Shown piece after piece: positions 34,203-38,122 of a DNA stretch of 64,000 nt. The translations under genes and the position numbers were made by a program. How positions within the stretch are numbered: position 1 is the first letter of the stretch; each line of letters starts with the position of its first letter. The notes under the pieces are model-generated. The model did not search any database. It saw only the letters and a list, made by a program, of their open reading frames with translations, and had not been told where the DNA came from. The stretch is from Kordiimonas sp. SCSIO 12603 (GTDB taxonomy: Bacteria > Pseudomonadota > Alphaproteobacteria > Sphingomonadales > Kordiimonadaceae), in NCBI RefSeq assembly GCF_024398035.1, contig NZ_CP073748.1, positions 2,517,520-2,581,519 on the forward strand. Direction: 5' to 3'.

Positions 34203-35009
34203 TTAAACGGACATCAATAATCTGACGGTAGCCAACACAAGAAACAAACCAAAGGCTATACTCAACAGTCTTTTTGGTATGGCATGAGCAACTTTGGCCC
34301 CATATGGTGCACACACCACAGCCGCTATCGCCACTATAACAAGGGATGGAATATGGATAAAACCAACCATCCCGGACGGCAAATCTGCTACATTTAGCCC
34401 ACCAAATAGATATCCCAAACCACCAGAAACACTAATAACCAACCCTATCAGCGAAGCCGTTCCAACGGCCTTCTGGATAGGAATATTATAGAGTGTAAGA
34501 TACGGTACAGAGAAGCTGCCCCCACCAATTCCCATAACCGCCGAAAAGAAGCCAATGATCCCTGGATTCAAGTAACGAAATACACCAGAAGGTAAATCTT
34601 CACCCAGTTTGTATTTATCCAGTGGTAACAACATTTTGAGAGCAAGCAAAGCGGCTAGTCCTGCAAAAATATAAATAAGCTCTTCTGTTTTTAGTGTTTT
34701 CGCAAAAAAAGCACCTGCAACTGCACCAACAGCAATTGCCCACCACCAATCTTTAACAATTGGCCATTCAACTCCACCTTTTTTATGGTGAGCTCTTACA
34801 CTCGAAAGGTTAGTTGCGACAATGATCGCAAGTGATGTTGCGATTGACGCATGCATACGCCACTCAATAGGCACACCAATACTATCGAAAACGATAAAGA
34901 GAGCTGGAATGGTGACAATTCCACCACCGATACCAAGCAACCCTGCTAGAAAGCCAGCAACCATCCCTGCCCCAACAAGTGGGAGCAAATGTTCTATCAT
35001 TTCCATCAT
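34203..35009 (-). CDS. TauE/SafE family membrane permease
   Basis: 268 residues with about eight hydrophobic segments and two internally related halves, each with a glycine-rich motif (GFLAGLLGIGGGIVTIPAL near the N-terminus and GFFSAVMGIGGGSFSVPYL near residue 155). This is the family signature of putative sulfite, sulfonate or organic-anion exporters; the substrate is not known. The gene is separated by 4 bases from the cysteine-cluster gene at 35014, so the two are probably co-transcribed. Confidence 0.93.
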   Translation of the reverse strand: MMEMIEHLLPLVGAGMVAGFLAGLLGIGGGIVTIPALFIVFDSIGVPIEWRMHASIATSLAIIVATNLSSVRAHHKKGGVEWPIVKDWWWAIAVGAVAGAFFAKTLKTEELIYIFAGLAALLALKMLLPLDKYKLGEDLPSGVFRYLNPGIIGFFSAVMGIGGGSFSVPYLTLYNIPIQKAVGTASLIGLVISVSGGLGYLFGGLNVADLPSGMVGFIHIPSLVIVAIAAVVCAPYGAKVAHAIPKRLLSIAFGLFLVLATVRLLMSV

Positions 35010-35013
35010 GAAA

Positions 35014-35496
35014 CTACCCTTGAACGCCTAACTTCTTTTCAAAATGTGCCAACTTTGATGGAGGTATTTCCCTGCCAACTTCATCAACTAGAACCTTATC
35101 TTCCTTTAACTGAAGCCAAACGGGGACGCCACCATTCCAAAACATCTGATAGCTGGCTTTCGCAAGATCGCTATAAAATGCTTCAGGAGTTTTATTGGTA
35201 TTCGCAATTACATAACTTTTTTCAAAAGGATTCCAGGATCCCTCATCTTGTGCGAACCGAAACATCACACCCAGTTTATCAGGCCTGCACGCATCTGGCA
35301 TAGCATCAACCTCTAACCAGGAACACACATAATTCCTACACCCTTCTGGCCGCTTACGGTAACTATCGCACCCGCCAGAGGCGCGAATATGCTTACACCT
35401 GGTTGCAGGTGGTTTCAGATAATTAGGGAATTCGACAGCAAGGATAATGCAGCACTCAGAACATGATCCGCACGATTTGGCCACGGCGCACACCAC
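35014..35496 (-). CDS. YkgJ-type cysteine-cluster protein
   Basis: About 160 residues with the CxxCxxCC signature of the YkgJ/UPF0153 group. Cysteines are at 9, 12, 15, 16, 34, 43, 53 and 58 (SCGSCSECC, TRCKH, GGCDS, EGCRNYVC). They probably bind zinc or an Fe-S cluster. The function of the family is unknown. The start is uncertain: GTG codons at 35496, 35493 and 35484 are all possible, with AAGAAG upstream of the first. It lies directly upstream of the TauE/SafE permease. Confidence 0.82.
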   Translation of the reverse strand: MVCAVAKSCGSCSECCIILAVEFPNYLKPPATRCKHIRASGGCDSYRKRPEGCRNYVCSWLEVDAMPDACRPDKLGVMFRFAQDEGSWNPFEKSYVIANTNKTPEAFYSDLAKASYQMFWNGGVPVWLQLKEDKVLVDEVGREIPPSKLAHFEKKLGVQG

Positions 35497-35583: not shown

Positions 35584-35660
35584 TGGTCGGAGAGACAGGA
35601 TTTGAACCTGCGGCCCCTACACCCCCAGTGTAGTGCGCTACCAGACTGCGCTACTCCCCG
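35584..35660 (-). tRNA. tRNA-Pro (GGG)
   Basis: Minus-strand cloverleaf with acceptor CGGGGAG/CTCTCCG, anticodon GGG in the loop CTGGGGG, D-loop CAGTCTGGTA, discriminator A and encoded CCA. The single copy sits between the YkgJ-type gene and the Rieske gene. Confidence 0.97.
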
Positions 35661-35740: not shown

Positions 35741-37294
35741 TTATTCTCGTTCTACATGAAATTTAGCCTGATATGCTTCTCTCGCGGGCGCTTTCTGCCT
35801 CAAATAAGAATGTAGGTAACGATTAAGTGCCGCCAATAATCTATCGGCCGTATCTTGCGAAACAAGATCAAGTAAGCACTCAACAGCACACACCATCTTC
35901 AATCGGTGAACTGAATAAATGTACTCACCATAATCCATATTGAAAAGGTTGGCTTTTTGTTGAGCCATAAATAATTTCTGATCGTCCACTTTCCATTTGT
36001 CGAATGTGGTTTCCGTAAGAAAAGGTTTATTTCTACCTACAAAGCAAGCCATCTGCAAAAGCCCTGATCGCCAATATTTATTTTCTGCCGTTGCATGAAC
36101 ATAAACTGCCCGAGCAAAGGTAATCGCATGAGTAAAATCAAGCCAACCAATGTTGCGGGCTATAGGTTGTTCAATTGCATTTTGTAAATTTACATCAAAA
36201 CTCAGCATGTTTTCTGCGGCAGCTAGCAAAAGCTGTTCCCAAAGCTCTTCATAAGGTTGATCAGATTGAACAACAGCCCCCATAACCGCATTAACTGATA
36301 ATCCTGAAAATGATAATGCCTGCTTATTTTCTTGTGGCCAATTGCTATTAAGAAAGGAGGCGAATTGTCTGAATTCTGGTAATAAATCTTCTCTTGCAGC
36401 ACCACATAGATGACGTACAAACTGAATAGCCAAGCCTCGCTCAACACTCCTGCCAAGTTGTTCAATTAACCGTTCAGCATGAACAACATAGATAGCTGAA
36501 TGACCGAATGCTGAGTAATGCTTAAATACCTGATCTAAGAAAACCGGCTTTAGATCAGCAAATCTTAACCCTTCATCAAAAGCAGCCTCACATAAACCCA
36601 CAGCCATTTCAAAATTCATATCTGCAATTGCTTTGCGGAAAGTTTCTATGCCCCATTCGATTGCGAGGCCGGCTTTGGCGGGGCGGCTCTGTAACCCGTC
36701 CCAGGAAAAATGCCCTGTGGCTTCAAGAAATGCTACCAGTCGAAGATCATCATCGTTTCCTGCCAAATCAATCCAGTCAGAAAGTCCAGCGTGTGCATGG
36801 CCAAACCCTCGTTCAATCTTATCTTCACTCCACCGGAGCGCTGAAACAGCGTAAGCTTCATATGGCTGTCCTGCTTTCGCACCGCGAGCCAGTGTCCGAG
36901 CTAGTCGGCTATAATCATGATCATTCAAAGCGTCTTCAAAGTCGGCCTCGAGTTTCCTGATCATCTCCTCTTTGGAAGGCGGTGTCATATCAAGCCAAAG
37001 CTCTCCATTGCGAACTTTAAGCGGATATGTCCGAACAGGATCCCGCCCCATAAGAGGTACACCATCTTTCAGGTTAAAAGTCCAACCATGCCAGTTACAG
37101 GAAAGAATACATCCTTCTTTCAGCGAACCTTCCTTAAGAGGGTATCCCTCATGTGGGCACCGATTATCAATGGCATAAAGCCCATCATCGGCAGCTATAA
37201 TCAAAATCTGCTTACCCGCTAATTTTACGACTGCTCTATCTTCAACCAATAATTCTTCAAGGCTGCCGAGATTTTCCCAATTGTTATTTGTCAC
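35741..37294 (-). CDS. Rieske 2Fe-2S protein fused to a large unknown helical domain
   Basis: 517 residues. Residues 1-102 form a Rieske ferredoxin-like domain with ligands Cys46, His48 (CPHEGYPL) and Cys66, His69 (SCNWHGWTF). Residues 110-517 are helical, and I cannot assign a family. This part is rich in conserved-looking His and Trp motifs: [12 protein letters not shown] (164-174), GHFSW (194-198), [15 protein letters not shown] (258-272) and [17 protein letters not shown] (384-400). No Rieske-oxygenase mononuclear iron motif (DxxHxxxxH) is evident. The start is GTG at 37294 after a strong GAGGAGGG. It overlaps the small ORF upstream by 11 bases. It is divergent from a five-cysteine HTH regulator. 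A redox or oxygenase-like role is inference. Confidence 0.85.
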
Positions 37295-37400
37295 GGTTTC
37301 CCTCCTCTTCAGCCTGCGACGTGGCTATATCTGCGCGGTCACGGTCAAGCCTTTCAGCGATAAGTTTAGCCCGTGCGATAAAGAGTATTTCCTGTCCCAT
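37284..37400 (-). CDS. 38-residue leader ORF coupled to the Rieske gene
   Basis: An ATG at 37398-37400 is preceded by GGAGG with a 6-base gap (GGAGGCTGAAAATG), a near-ideal ribosome-binding site. It opens a 38-codon frame that ends inside the start of the Rieske gene. The peptide begins MGQEILFIARAKLIAERLD and ends EEEGNRDK. It is charged and likely a single amphipathic helix, with no Cys or membrane segment. Overlap by 11 bases suggests translational coupling. It may be a small partner protein or a leader peptide. It is unrecognised. Confidence 0.6.
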   Translation of the reverse strand: MGQEILFIARAKLIAERLDRDRADIATSQAEEEGNRDK

Positions 37401-37495
37401 TTTCAGCCTCCATTAATTAAATAAAAAACTTTAATTAATAAACTGTGGGTTCAGCTTGATTTTTTCAAGTAAAAACTTTAAATAAAATTCAGGAG
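37401..37495. promoter_or_regulatory. Divergent promoter region of the Rieske module
   Basis: A 95-base, very AT-rich gap. It holds AACTTTAATTAATAAA (from 37427) and AACTTTAAATAAAATT (37474-37489) as direct repeats about 47 bp apart, a further TTAATTAA at 37413-37420, and an inverted repeat CTTGA-N5-TCAAG at 37455-37469 midway. These are candidate sites for the regulator at 37502. Confidence 0.5.
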
Positions 37496-37501
37496 ATGGA
37501 A

Positions 37502-38122
37502 ATGAGTACACGCGAAACGATTCTGAAAGAGTTGAAAATCAAGGGAAAAGCGCGCGCTGACGAGCTATCAGAACCGCTGAACTTGACTGCGATGGCAGTC
37601 CGCCAACACCTATACCAACTGCAAGAAGAAGGCGCTGTTGAGTGTATTTCTGTCGCGTCTGGTAGAGGGAGGCCCGCGAAATATTGGCGGCTGACAGAGA
37701 AATCAAACGTCTATTTTCAAGATGCACACAGGGATCTATCGCTTGATCTGATCTCTGGTATTCGCGATGTACTTGGTGGTGATGCCCTGCTCCAATTGCT
37801 GGATCACCGATCAACAAAACAAGAAAAAACTTACAAGGAAGCAATGGCTGAAGCTGATGATCTATCGGAGAAATTAGTTGCCCTCGCGAAAGCGCGATCA
37901 AGTGAAGGGTATATGGCTGATGTAACCACAGAAGACGGTGATTTGCTCTTCATTGAAAATCACTGCCCTATCTGTGAAGCAGCCAAGTCCTGCAGTGGTA
38001 TATGCTCTCAGGAACTTCAGTTATTTCAAAAACTTTTTGAAGATGAAGCTTTTGTCGAAAGATCAGAACATATAGTGGCAGGCGCAAGACGTTGCGCCTA
38101 CAAAGTATCCAAGAAAAACTAA
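37502..38122 (+). CDS. HTH regulator with C-terminal cysteine cluster (SufR-like)
   Basis: 206 residues from the ATG at 37502, which has AGGAG 6 bases upstream; the ATG at 37496 is too close. The N-terminal winged helix has [20 protein letters not shown] and the wing [13 protein letters not shown]. The C-terminus has Cys155, Cys158 (CPIC), Cys164, Cys168 (CSGIC) and Cys198 (GARRCAYKV), the pattern of SufR-type regulators (COG2345) that sense Fe-S status by binding a cluster. It is divergent from the Rieske gene and small ORF, so these are its likely targets together with its own gene. Its 3' end overlaps merR by 4 bases. Confidence 0.88.

Follow-up and report, generated by a model that had tools for sequence, protein, structure and literature searches.

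A SufR-like regulator divergent from a Rieske fusion gene in Kordiimonas: a possible redox-stress module with a probably questin-oxidase-like domain

The window analysed here is a stretch of 64,000 nucleotides from Kordiimonas sp. SCSIO 12603 (contig NZ_CP073748.1, positions 2,517,520 to 2,581,519), part of a complete 3.85-Mb genome. Within it, at positions 35741-38122 of the window, a gene encoding a Rieske [2Fe-2S] domain fused to a long helical domain is transcribed divergently from a gene for a SufR-like winged-helix regulator. We give an even chance to the view that the two make up a redox-stress detoxification module, in which a regulator of the Fe-S type controls a Rieske-fed, questin-oxidase-like oxygenase. 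The linkage of enzyme and regulator is well supported. The two genes adjoin and diverge in all 17 loci of the order sample (in L006 and L032 the contig ends inside the regulator gene), and strong regulator matches occur exactly in the 17 genomes that encode the enzyme, the other 42 of the 59 having neither (Fisher p 4e-15, not corrected for kinship). Regulator matches in the 17 genomes exceed 230 bits, those in 11 others stay below 29 bits, and the presence of enzyme and regulator is patchy inside one genus. A sequence-only reading had described three open reading frames (ORFs) at this locus, and the ORF listing agrees with it in coordinates, strands and residues.

The Rieske gene (35741-37294, minus strand, GTG start) encodes 517 amino acids and has full-length homologues in other genomes. 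PF00355 matches the protein at residues 6-80 (E 3.2e-15), within a Rieske domain of residues 1-104 (36983-37294, minus strand) whose nearest solved structure is the Rieske ferredoxin of toluene monooxygenase. The ligands C46, H48, C66 and H69, already named from the sequence, are invariant in 47 of 47 aligned homologues. Since 17 of the 59 order-sample genomes, this one included, encode a full-length copy, the fusion is not a chance event; the 16 others are 37-93% identical, the near relative Kordiimonas laminariae reaching 93% over the 517 residues. Full-length copies, counted as strong matches in the class search, are present in 38 of the 385 genomes of the class sample and in 5 of the 398 of the phylum sample, all samples being even draws rather than all genomes. 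The class figure comes from 39 genomes with enzyme matches, of which G750 (23.8 bits) was dropped and G619 (internal stop) kept; seven of the 38 were left out of fetching and alignment. At most four enzyme and seven regulator candidates were scored per genome in the class searches, so that absences there are not exhaustive. The Rieske domain is kept by all 47 aligned alphaproteobacterial fusions (17 from the order, 30 from the class), and the Rieske-helical fusion is real and conserved, as had been proposed, with a helical part that bears no Pfam name.

A Rieske ring-hydroxylating oxygenase was considered and rejected. As in Rieske non-haem iron oxygenases and Rieske ferredoxins, a Rieske domain is present, N-terminal in the fusion and nearest to the ferredoxin type, but no match to the alpha-subunit catalytic domain follows it and no Pfam family other than the Rieske models rises above its cut-off in the 517-residue protein, in keeping with the earlier statement that the helical part is not the Rieske-oxygenase catalytic fold. 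A distant branch, annotated solely as 'Rieske (2Fe-2S) protein', is found on plasmids of Priestia, Metabacillus, Gloeothece, Paraburkholderia and the two haloarchaea Haladaptatus and Halorussus. Its architecture is the same and its helical part is homologous (hhalign probability 96.7-99.1%, versus 0.1-0.2% with reversed columns), but H166 is absent, the proteins are about 60 residues longer and the neighbouring genes are different. In the two haloarchaea (L072, 8037-11550; L074, 7952-11367), the gene lies directly upstream of both ribonucleotide reductase genes.

In the class sample, 26 of the 385 genomes have both genes, 12 the enzyme alone, 19 the regulator alone and 328 neither, again without correction for phylogeny, regulator matches being counted above 200 bits (45 of the 96 genomes with any match; the rest fall below 30 bits). 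The 12 enzyme-only genomes were rechecked for the regulator with every candidate scored. Among 30 class loci fetched, a divergent regulator gene lies within 1.5 kb of the enzyme gene in 12 and within 2 kb in two more; in two further genomes (L173 and L174) the two genes are adjacent on the same strand, and in nine class genomes with the enzyme the regulator is encoded elsewhere in the assembly. In three class loci where the fusion is present (L056, L057 and L097), an MFS gene is also found within 2 kb of the regulator gene.

The regulator gene (37496-38122, plus strand) encodes 208 amino acids. Its product matches TIGR02702, the SufR model, over its full length with 108.9 bits, which does not reach the cut-off of 178.8. 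At E 1e-10 or better, all 21 regulators of alignment A7 hit this model and none hits another; six more, scored singly, gave 99-127 bits. In Pfam there is no MerR match, and the only ones found are weak and of the HTH_11, ArsR or DeoR type. The protein contains the arrangement C157-x2-C160-x5-C166-x3-C170, followed by C200, so that both the SufR-like assignment and the five cysteines of the sequence-only reading hold. C157, C170 and C200 are present in 68 of 68 regulator loci, C166 in 67 and C160 in 60, and the regulator probably carries an Fe-S cluster. The C-X12-C spacing of SufR, as given in PMC8593673, is that of C157 and C170, and C203 and C216 of Rv1460 are spaced alike (PMC6034842). The full SufR ligand pattern, C-X12-C-X13-C-X14-C, is not followed further: C200 comes 29 residues after C170 (X29), no cysteine stands at the third position, and C160 and C166 are extra. 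One group of MFS-linked regulators (L172, L191, L193, L194) carries an Ala in place of C160, and the SOD-linked regulator of Azospirillum (L201; SOD, superoxide dismutase) an Asp in place of C166, suggesting that C160 and C166 may be dispensable as ligands. SufR is the cyanobacterial and actinobacterial [4Fe-4S] repressor of suf; the present family shares with it the full-length match, the C-X12-C element and an N6 palindrome, but its half-sites are AAAG/CTTT rather than CAAC/GTTG, its neighbours are SOD, pumps and oxygenases rather than suf, and it occurs in Alphaproteobacteria and, on plasmids, in other groups.

Between the divergent genes, in the interval 37401-37495 where binding of the regulator had been anticipated, a pattern search found two predicted operators, both on the minus strand. 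Operator 1 (37465-37480, TAAAGTTTTTACTTGA) has no mismatch to TAAAG-N6-CTTKA, and operator 2 (37418-37433, TAAAG-N6-ATTTA) has one; independently of the pattern, both were picked up as a 27-nt direct repeat at a spacing of 47. In 28 divergent intergenic regions, 43 sites with at most one mismatch were counted, whereas shuffles gave a mean of 0.9 and a maximum of 4. At least one site is present in 26 of the 28 regions, and 17 have two, 40-49 bp apart. The enzyme gene is probably controlled through these repeats. The N6 spacing is that of the SufR operator, CAAC-N6-GTTG according to PMC8593673, with different half-sites. At the locus of a cyanobacterial regulator, on a plasmid of Trichormus, TAAAG-N6-CTTTA occurs twice without mismatch, so that the motif accompanies the regulator family outside the class as well. 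A looser pattern (AAG-N6-CTT with flanks) finds sites in 13 of 28 other regulator loci (20 sites, 0.6 expected). Of two enzyme genes whose regulator is 1.5-2 kb away, one has a site. In several relatives, the TTGA of the upstream site resembles a -35 element by eye; in the window, a scan of 37250-37560 for sigma-70-like promoters found none, with 0.6 expected.

There is no enrichment of the operator pattern genome-wide, since both strands together contain 18 matches versus 47 for a backward control. The matches that resemble the sites of relatives are the one in the window and one at 3334593, and no others. The latter (3334593-3334608, around 1501 in L123; TAAAGAAAAAACTTGA) is identical to the operators of some relatives and is flanked by a divergently oriented MFS transporter gene and by one whose product matches no NCBIfam model. 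Possibly it is a second target of the regulator.

A survey of 68 regulator loci, 29 of which were picked for a nearby enzyme gene and some of which are close kin (L188-L190, and likewise L172, L191, L193 and L194), found the fusion in the divergent position in 27, an MFS gene in 16, SOD in 6, a questin oxidase in 2 and none of these in 17. SOD is found in five annotated plasmid loci, accompanied by DoxX in three (L195, L199 and L200, where both lie upstream of the regulator), by FdxA and a flavin reductase in two of these (L199 and L200), and by a ferredoxin-NADP reductase in L200. In Comamonas, an RND pump operon is convergent to the regulator gene. As the same regulator family thus diverges from SOD, MFS pumps or questin oxidase elsewhere, the switch is not dedicated. 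The sequence-only reading had proposed a dedicated one, a view that also fails on the 12 of 38 class genomes that have the enzyme without the regulator and on the operator counts given below.

The two regulator-linked questin genes, both from one genus, score 43 and 47 bits with PF14027 (cut-off 27). Each locus has two operator-like sites by the looser pattern, and no fusion match was found in these genomes in the class search. In a midpoint-rooted FastTree phylogeny, their regulators are sister to those of the Kordiimonas family (support 0.88, each of the two groups having at least 0.995); the fusion-linked regulators form at least two groups, and both sisters lie inside one of them. Taken together, these data mean that, under the same kind of switch, the fusion is replaced by a true questin oxidase. 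No functional clue is stronger than this exchange, but it amounts to a single event.

The helical domain (residues 105-517; 35744-36982, minus strand) is probably questin-oxidase-like. For its 413 residues, no Pfam family rises above its cut-off with the window protein alone or with 17 homologues, no PDB sequence matches up to E 10, and profile searches of the PDB gave nothing or chance-level hits. The sequence-only reading, which could not assign the domain, stands as to these matches; what has changed is that the questin-oxidase relationship, an option it had named, is now the probable one. The histidine motifs that it cited are present, H166 lying in GHAHAG, H259 and H265 in HYSAFGH and H389 in DFTHAIT, and H463 is invariant too. 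G264, H265, H389, T392 and H463 are found in 53 of 53 sequences of both branches and H259 and R301 in 52, while H166 and E191 are invariant in the 47 alphaproteobacterial fusions. Conservation of helical-domain histidines across phyla agrees with the second metal site suggested earlier, and such a pattern of invariance is to be expected of a metal site.

Bacterial questin oxidases were gathered by PF14027 and by similarity. The motif count used 13 of 14, without L206, whose frame is broken or misread. Four histidines are conserved in these enzymes, as H-x-P-M, H-x-x-[IM]-R, H-x-x-T and either H-x-[IV]-K or H-D-x-S. The corresponding motifs of the window protein are HAHA (H166, HAHAG), HSAI (H265, HSAIY), HAIT (H389) and HRLK (H463), in the same order, with spacings of 99/124/74 compared to 90-95/113-128/68-87 in the 13 questin sequences and 90/128/68 in the questin oxidases of L177 and L178. 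A pattern of the four motifs fits 38 of 47 fusions (nine miss it), 12 of 13 questin proteins, 1 of 18,800 shuffled fusions and none of 489 other ORFs, from which those with a CPHEG or NH-x-PM motif had been excluded. With PF14027 (DUF4243; fungal GedK), the fusion therefore has in common four histidine motifs in the same order and at similar spacing, the third being H-x-x-T and the fourth often H-x-[IV]-K, as well as adjacency, in one genus, to the same regulator. It differs in its fused Rieske domain, in a length greater by about 70 residues and in being invisible to the Pfam model: at the cut-off of 27 bits, neither the window protein nor any of the 17 helical domains matches. PF14027 itself has no match in 99 genomes of the order sample or in the control genomes of that search, and matches in 3 of 249 phylum-sample genomes, two of them above cut-off. 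Fungal GedK is presented in PMC3751827 as a putative questin oxidase, of Baeyer-Villiger type, in geodin synthesis, and the functional assignment of a DUF4243 protein is called ambiguous in PMC11149221. A Streptomyces gene annotated as hypothetical (L207, 2929-4845), 33% identical in product to the questin oxidase of L177, adjoins soxR and genes for a DsbA-family oxidoreductase and a monooxygenase; it is a second tie of the questin-oxidase family to redox sensing.

SoxR is a MerR-family activator. It resembles the present regulator in logic alone, an Fe-S regulator being divergent from an MFS pump, SOD or oxidase, and differs from it in type, the latter being a winged-helix protein of the SufR/ArsR kind. 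Grouping SOD, efflux pumps and oxidases under a single Fe-S regulator is SoxR logic, and the module is therefore read as a response to redox cyclers. In Stenotrophomonas, a SoxR encoded head-to-head with an MFS pump responds in this way, the pump being induced by paraquat, menadione and plumbagin according to PMC4411124. In the mechanism we propose, we infer the cluster and its chemistry, the sign of control, the metal, the electron path and the substrate. The regulator with its Fe-S cluster would act as a repressor, like SufR, from the paired sites between the divergent genes; redox-cycling compounds or superoxide would damage or oxidize the cluster, and both genes would be released. The Rieske domain would then hand electrons to the questin-oxidase-like domain of the same chain, where the conserved histidines might hold a catalytic metal, and O2 would serve to cleave a quinone-type ring or to destroy it in some other way.

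Several results weigh against this detoxification module or its parts. On the side of control, 15 of the 28 other regulator loci, most MFS loci among them, have no site by the looser pattern. No operator was seen at any of 14 enzyme genes, eight without a regulator and six with one far away; the expectation that genes with the regulator in trans would keep it failed. There is none at L097 either, where the regulator is 1.5 kb off. No SOD or pump gene is next to the regulator in the window, 12 of the 38 class genomes with the enzyme have no regulator, and no recurrent pathway neighbours appear across 36 neighbourhoods beyond order-level synteny. On the side of the enzyme, the four-motif pattern was drawn up after both families had been seen, and in the distant branch the first histidine is missing and the last spacing is longer, at 106-118 in four members. 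Profile-profile comparison of the helical domain with questin oxidase is not significant; local pairwise E values are 0.005-0.46, compared to 0.17-0.81 for reversed decoys, and 2 of 150 column shuffles score equally high.

Some of these points favour other explanations. The absence of any Pfam, PDB or significant profile match, together with the missing first histidine of the distant branch, would suit a helical domain with its own fold, unrelated to questin oxidase, whose histidines bind haem or a di-metal centre for another job (electron sink, sensor or reductase). We judge this improbable, in view of the four motifs that match questin oxidase in order, similar spacing and sequence, and of the true PF14027 gene that replaces the fusion beside the same regulator, with operator-like sites present. 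The enzyme could also be an oxygenase of catabolism or biosynthesis that acts on one particular natural compound (an aromatic or a polyketide), with a regulator that merely reports oxygen or the redox state. The place of GedK in geodin synthesis (PMC3751827) and the enzyme-only class genomes speak for it; the 36 neighbourhoods, order synteny aside, contain no recurrent pathway genes, and defence is the better fit for a gene that stands alone with a stress-type regulator, so that we regard such a role as unlikely.

The SufR kinship raises a different question, whether the regulator senses the supply of clusters (iron, sulfur) and the Rieske-helical protein, induced at cluster shortage, serves in Fe-S maintenance, electron supply or iron mobilization instead of acting as a detoxifying oxygenase. 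SufR controls suf operons (PMC8593673), and the 21 of 21 regulators matching TIGR02702 point the same way. A link to suf in this genome was nonetheless rejected: the suf genes are at 210 kb and the regulator at 2555 kb, with no exact operator match near suf among the matches listed. No suf gene is annotated in eight annotated plasmid loci of the family, and the neighbours found elsewhere are SOD, MFS, RND and questin oxidase genes. Fe-S homeostasis thus seems to us an improbable function.

Returning to the redox-stress module, a broader proposal can be made, more tentatively and at somewhat less than an even chance: that the regulator family governs an undescribed bacterial regulon for redox defence, in which a sensor of Fe-S type derived from SufR, operating with SoxR-like logic on a different scaffold, is combined with exchangeable defence modules (SOD, an MFS or RND pump, questin oxidase), the version of Kordiimonas and its relatives being a self-sufficient metal oxygenase, supplied by its Rieske domain, that cleaves quinone rings. 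Listings of open-licence PMC papers showed none on a Rieske-questin fusion, a SufR family not tied to suf or a Kordiimonas Rieske protein. If the proposal is true, a large unnamed family of bacteria and archaea, annotated just as 'Rieske protein', gains a catalytic hypothesis, and for the questin oxidases a metal site can be suggested, along with a bacterial branch that brings its own electron donor. A SufR-like sister group with a defined operator, located beside genes for superoxide defence and drug export, would widen the known scope of such regulators.

The third ORF of the locus (37284-37400, minus strand) encodes 38 amino acids and overlaps the start of the Rieske gene. It looks coding: its four nucleotide differences from the near relative L021 are all synonymous, by eye, and a core of the type W-[IV]-E-Y-G-x-[IL]-R is found in 10 of 16 order loci, the ORF of the window having diverged from it, and in none of 12 class loci examined. 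The 38-residue partner of the sequence-only reading is accordingly retained as a short ORF conserved in most order loci, an order-level microprotein or leader, and rejected as a part of the core module. It has a GGAGG resembling a ribosome-binding site, and its role may not go beyond translational coupling. An Rfam scan of 37200-37600 gave no match. Downstream of the Rieske gene, at 34203-35496, a TauE/SafE exporter and a cysteine-rich protein of 160 amino acids are encoded. TauE was considered as a functional clue and rejected, as it lies within 3.5 kb of the regulator in just 7 of 15 order loci, probably through plain synteny. A tRNA-Pro (ggg) gene is located at 35584-35660, just downstream of the Rieske gene.

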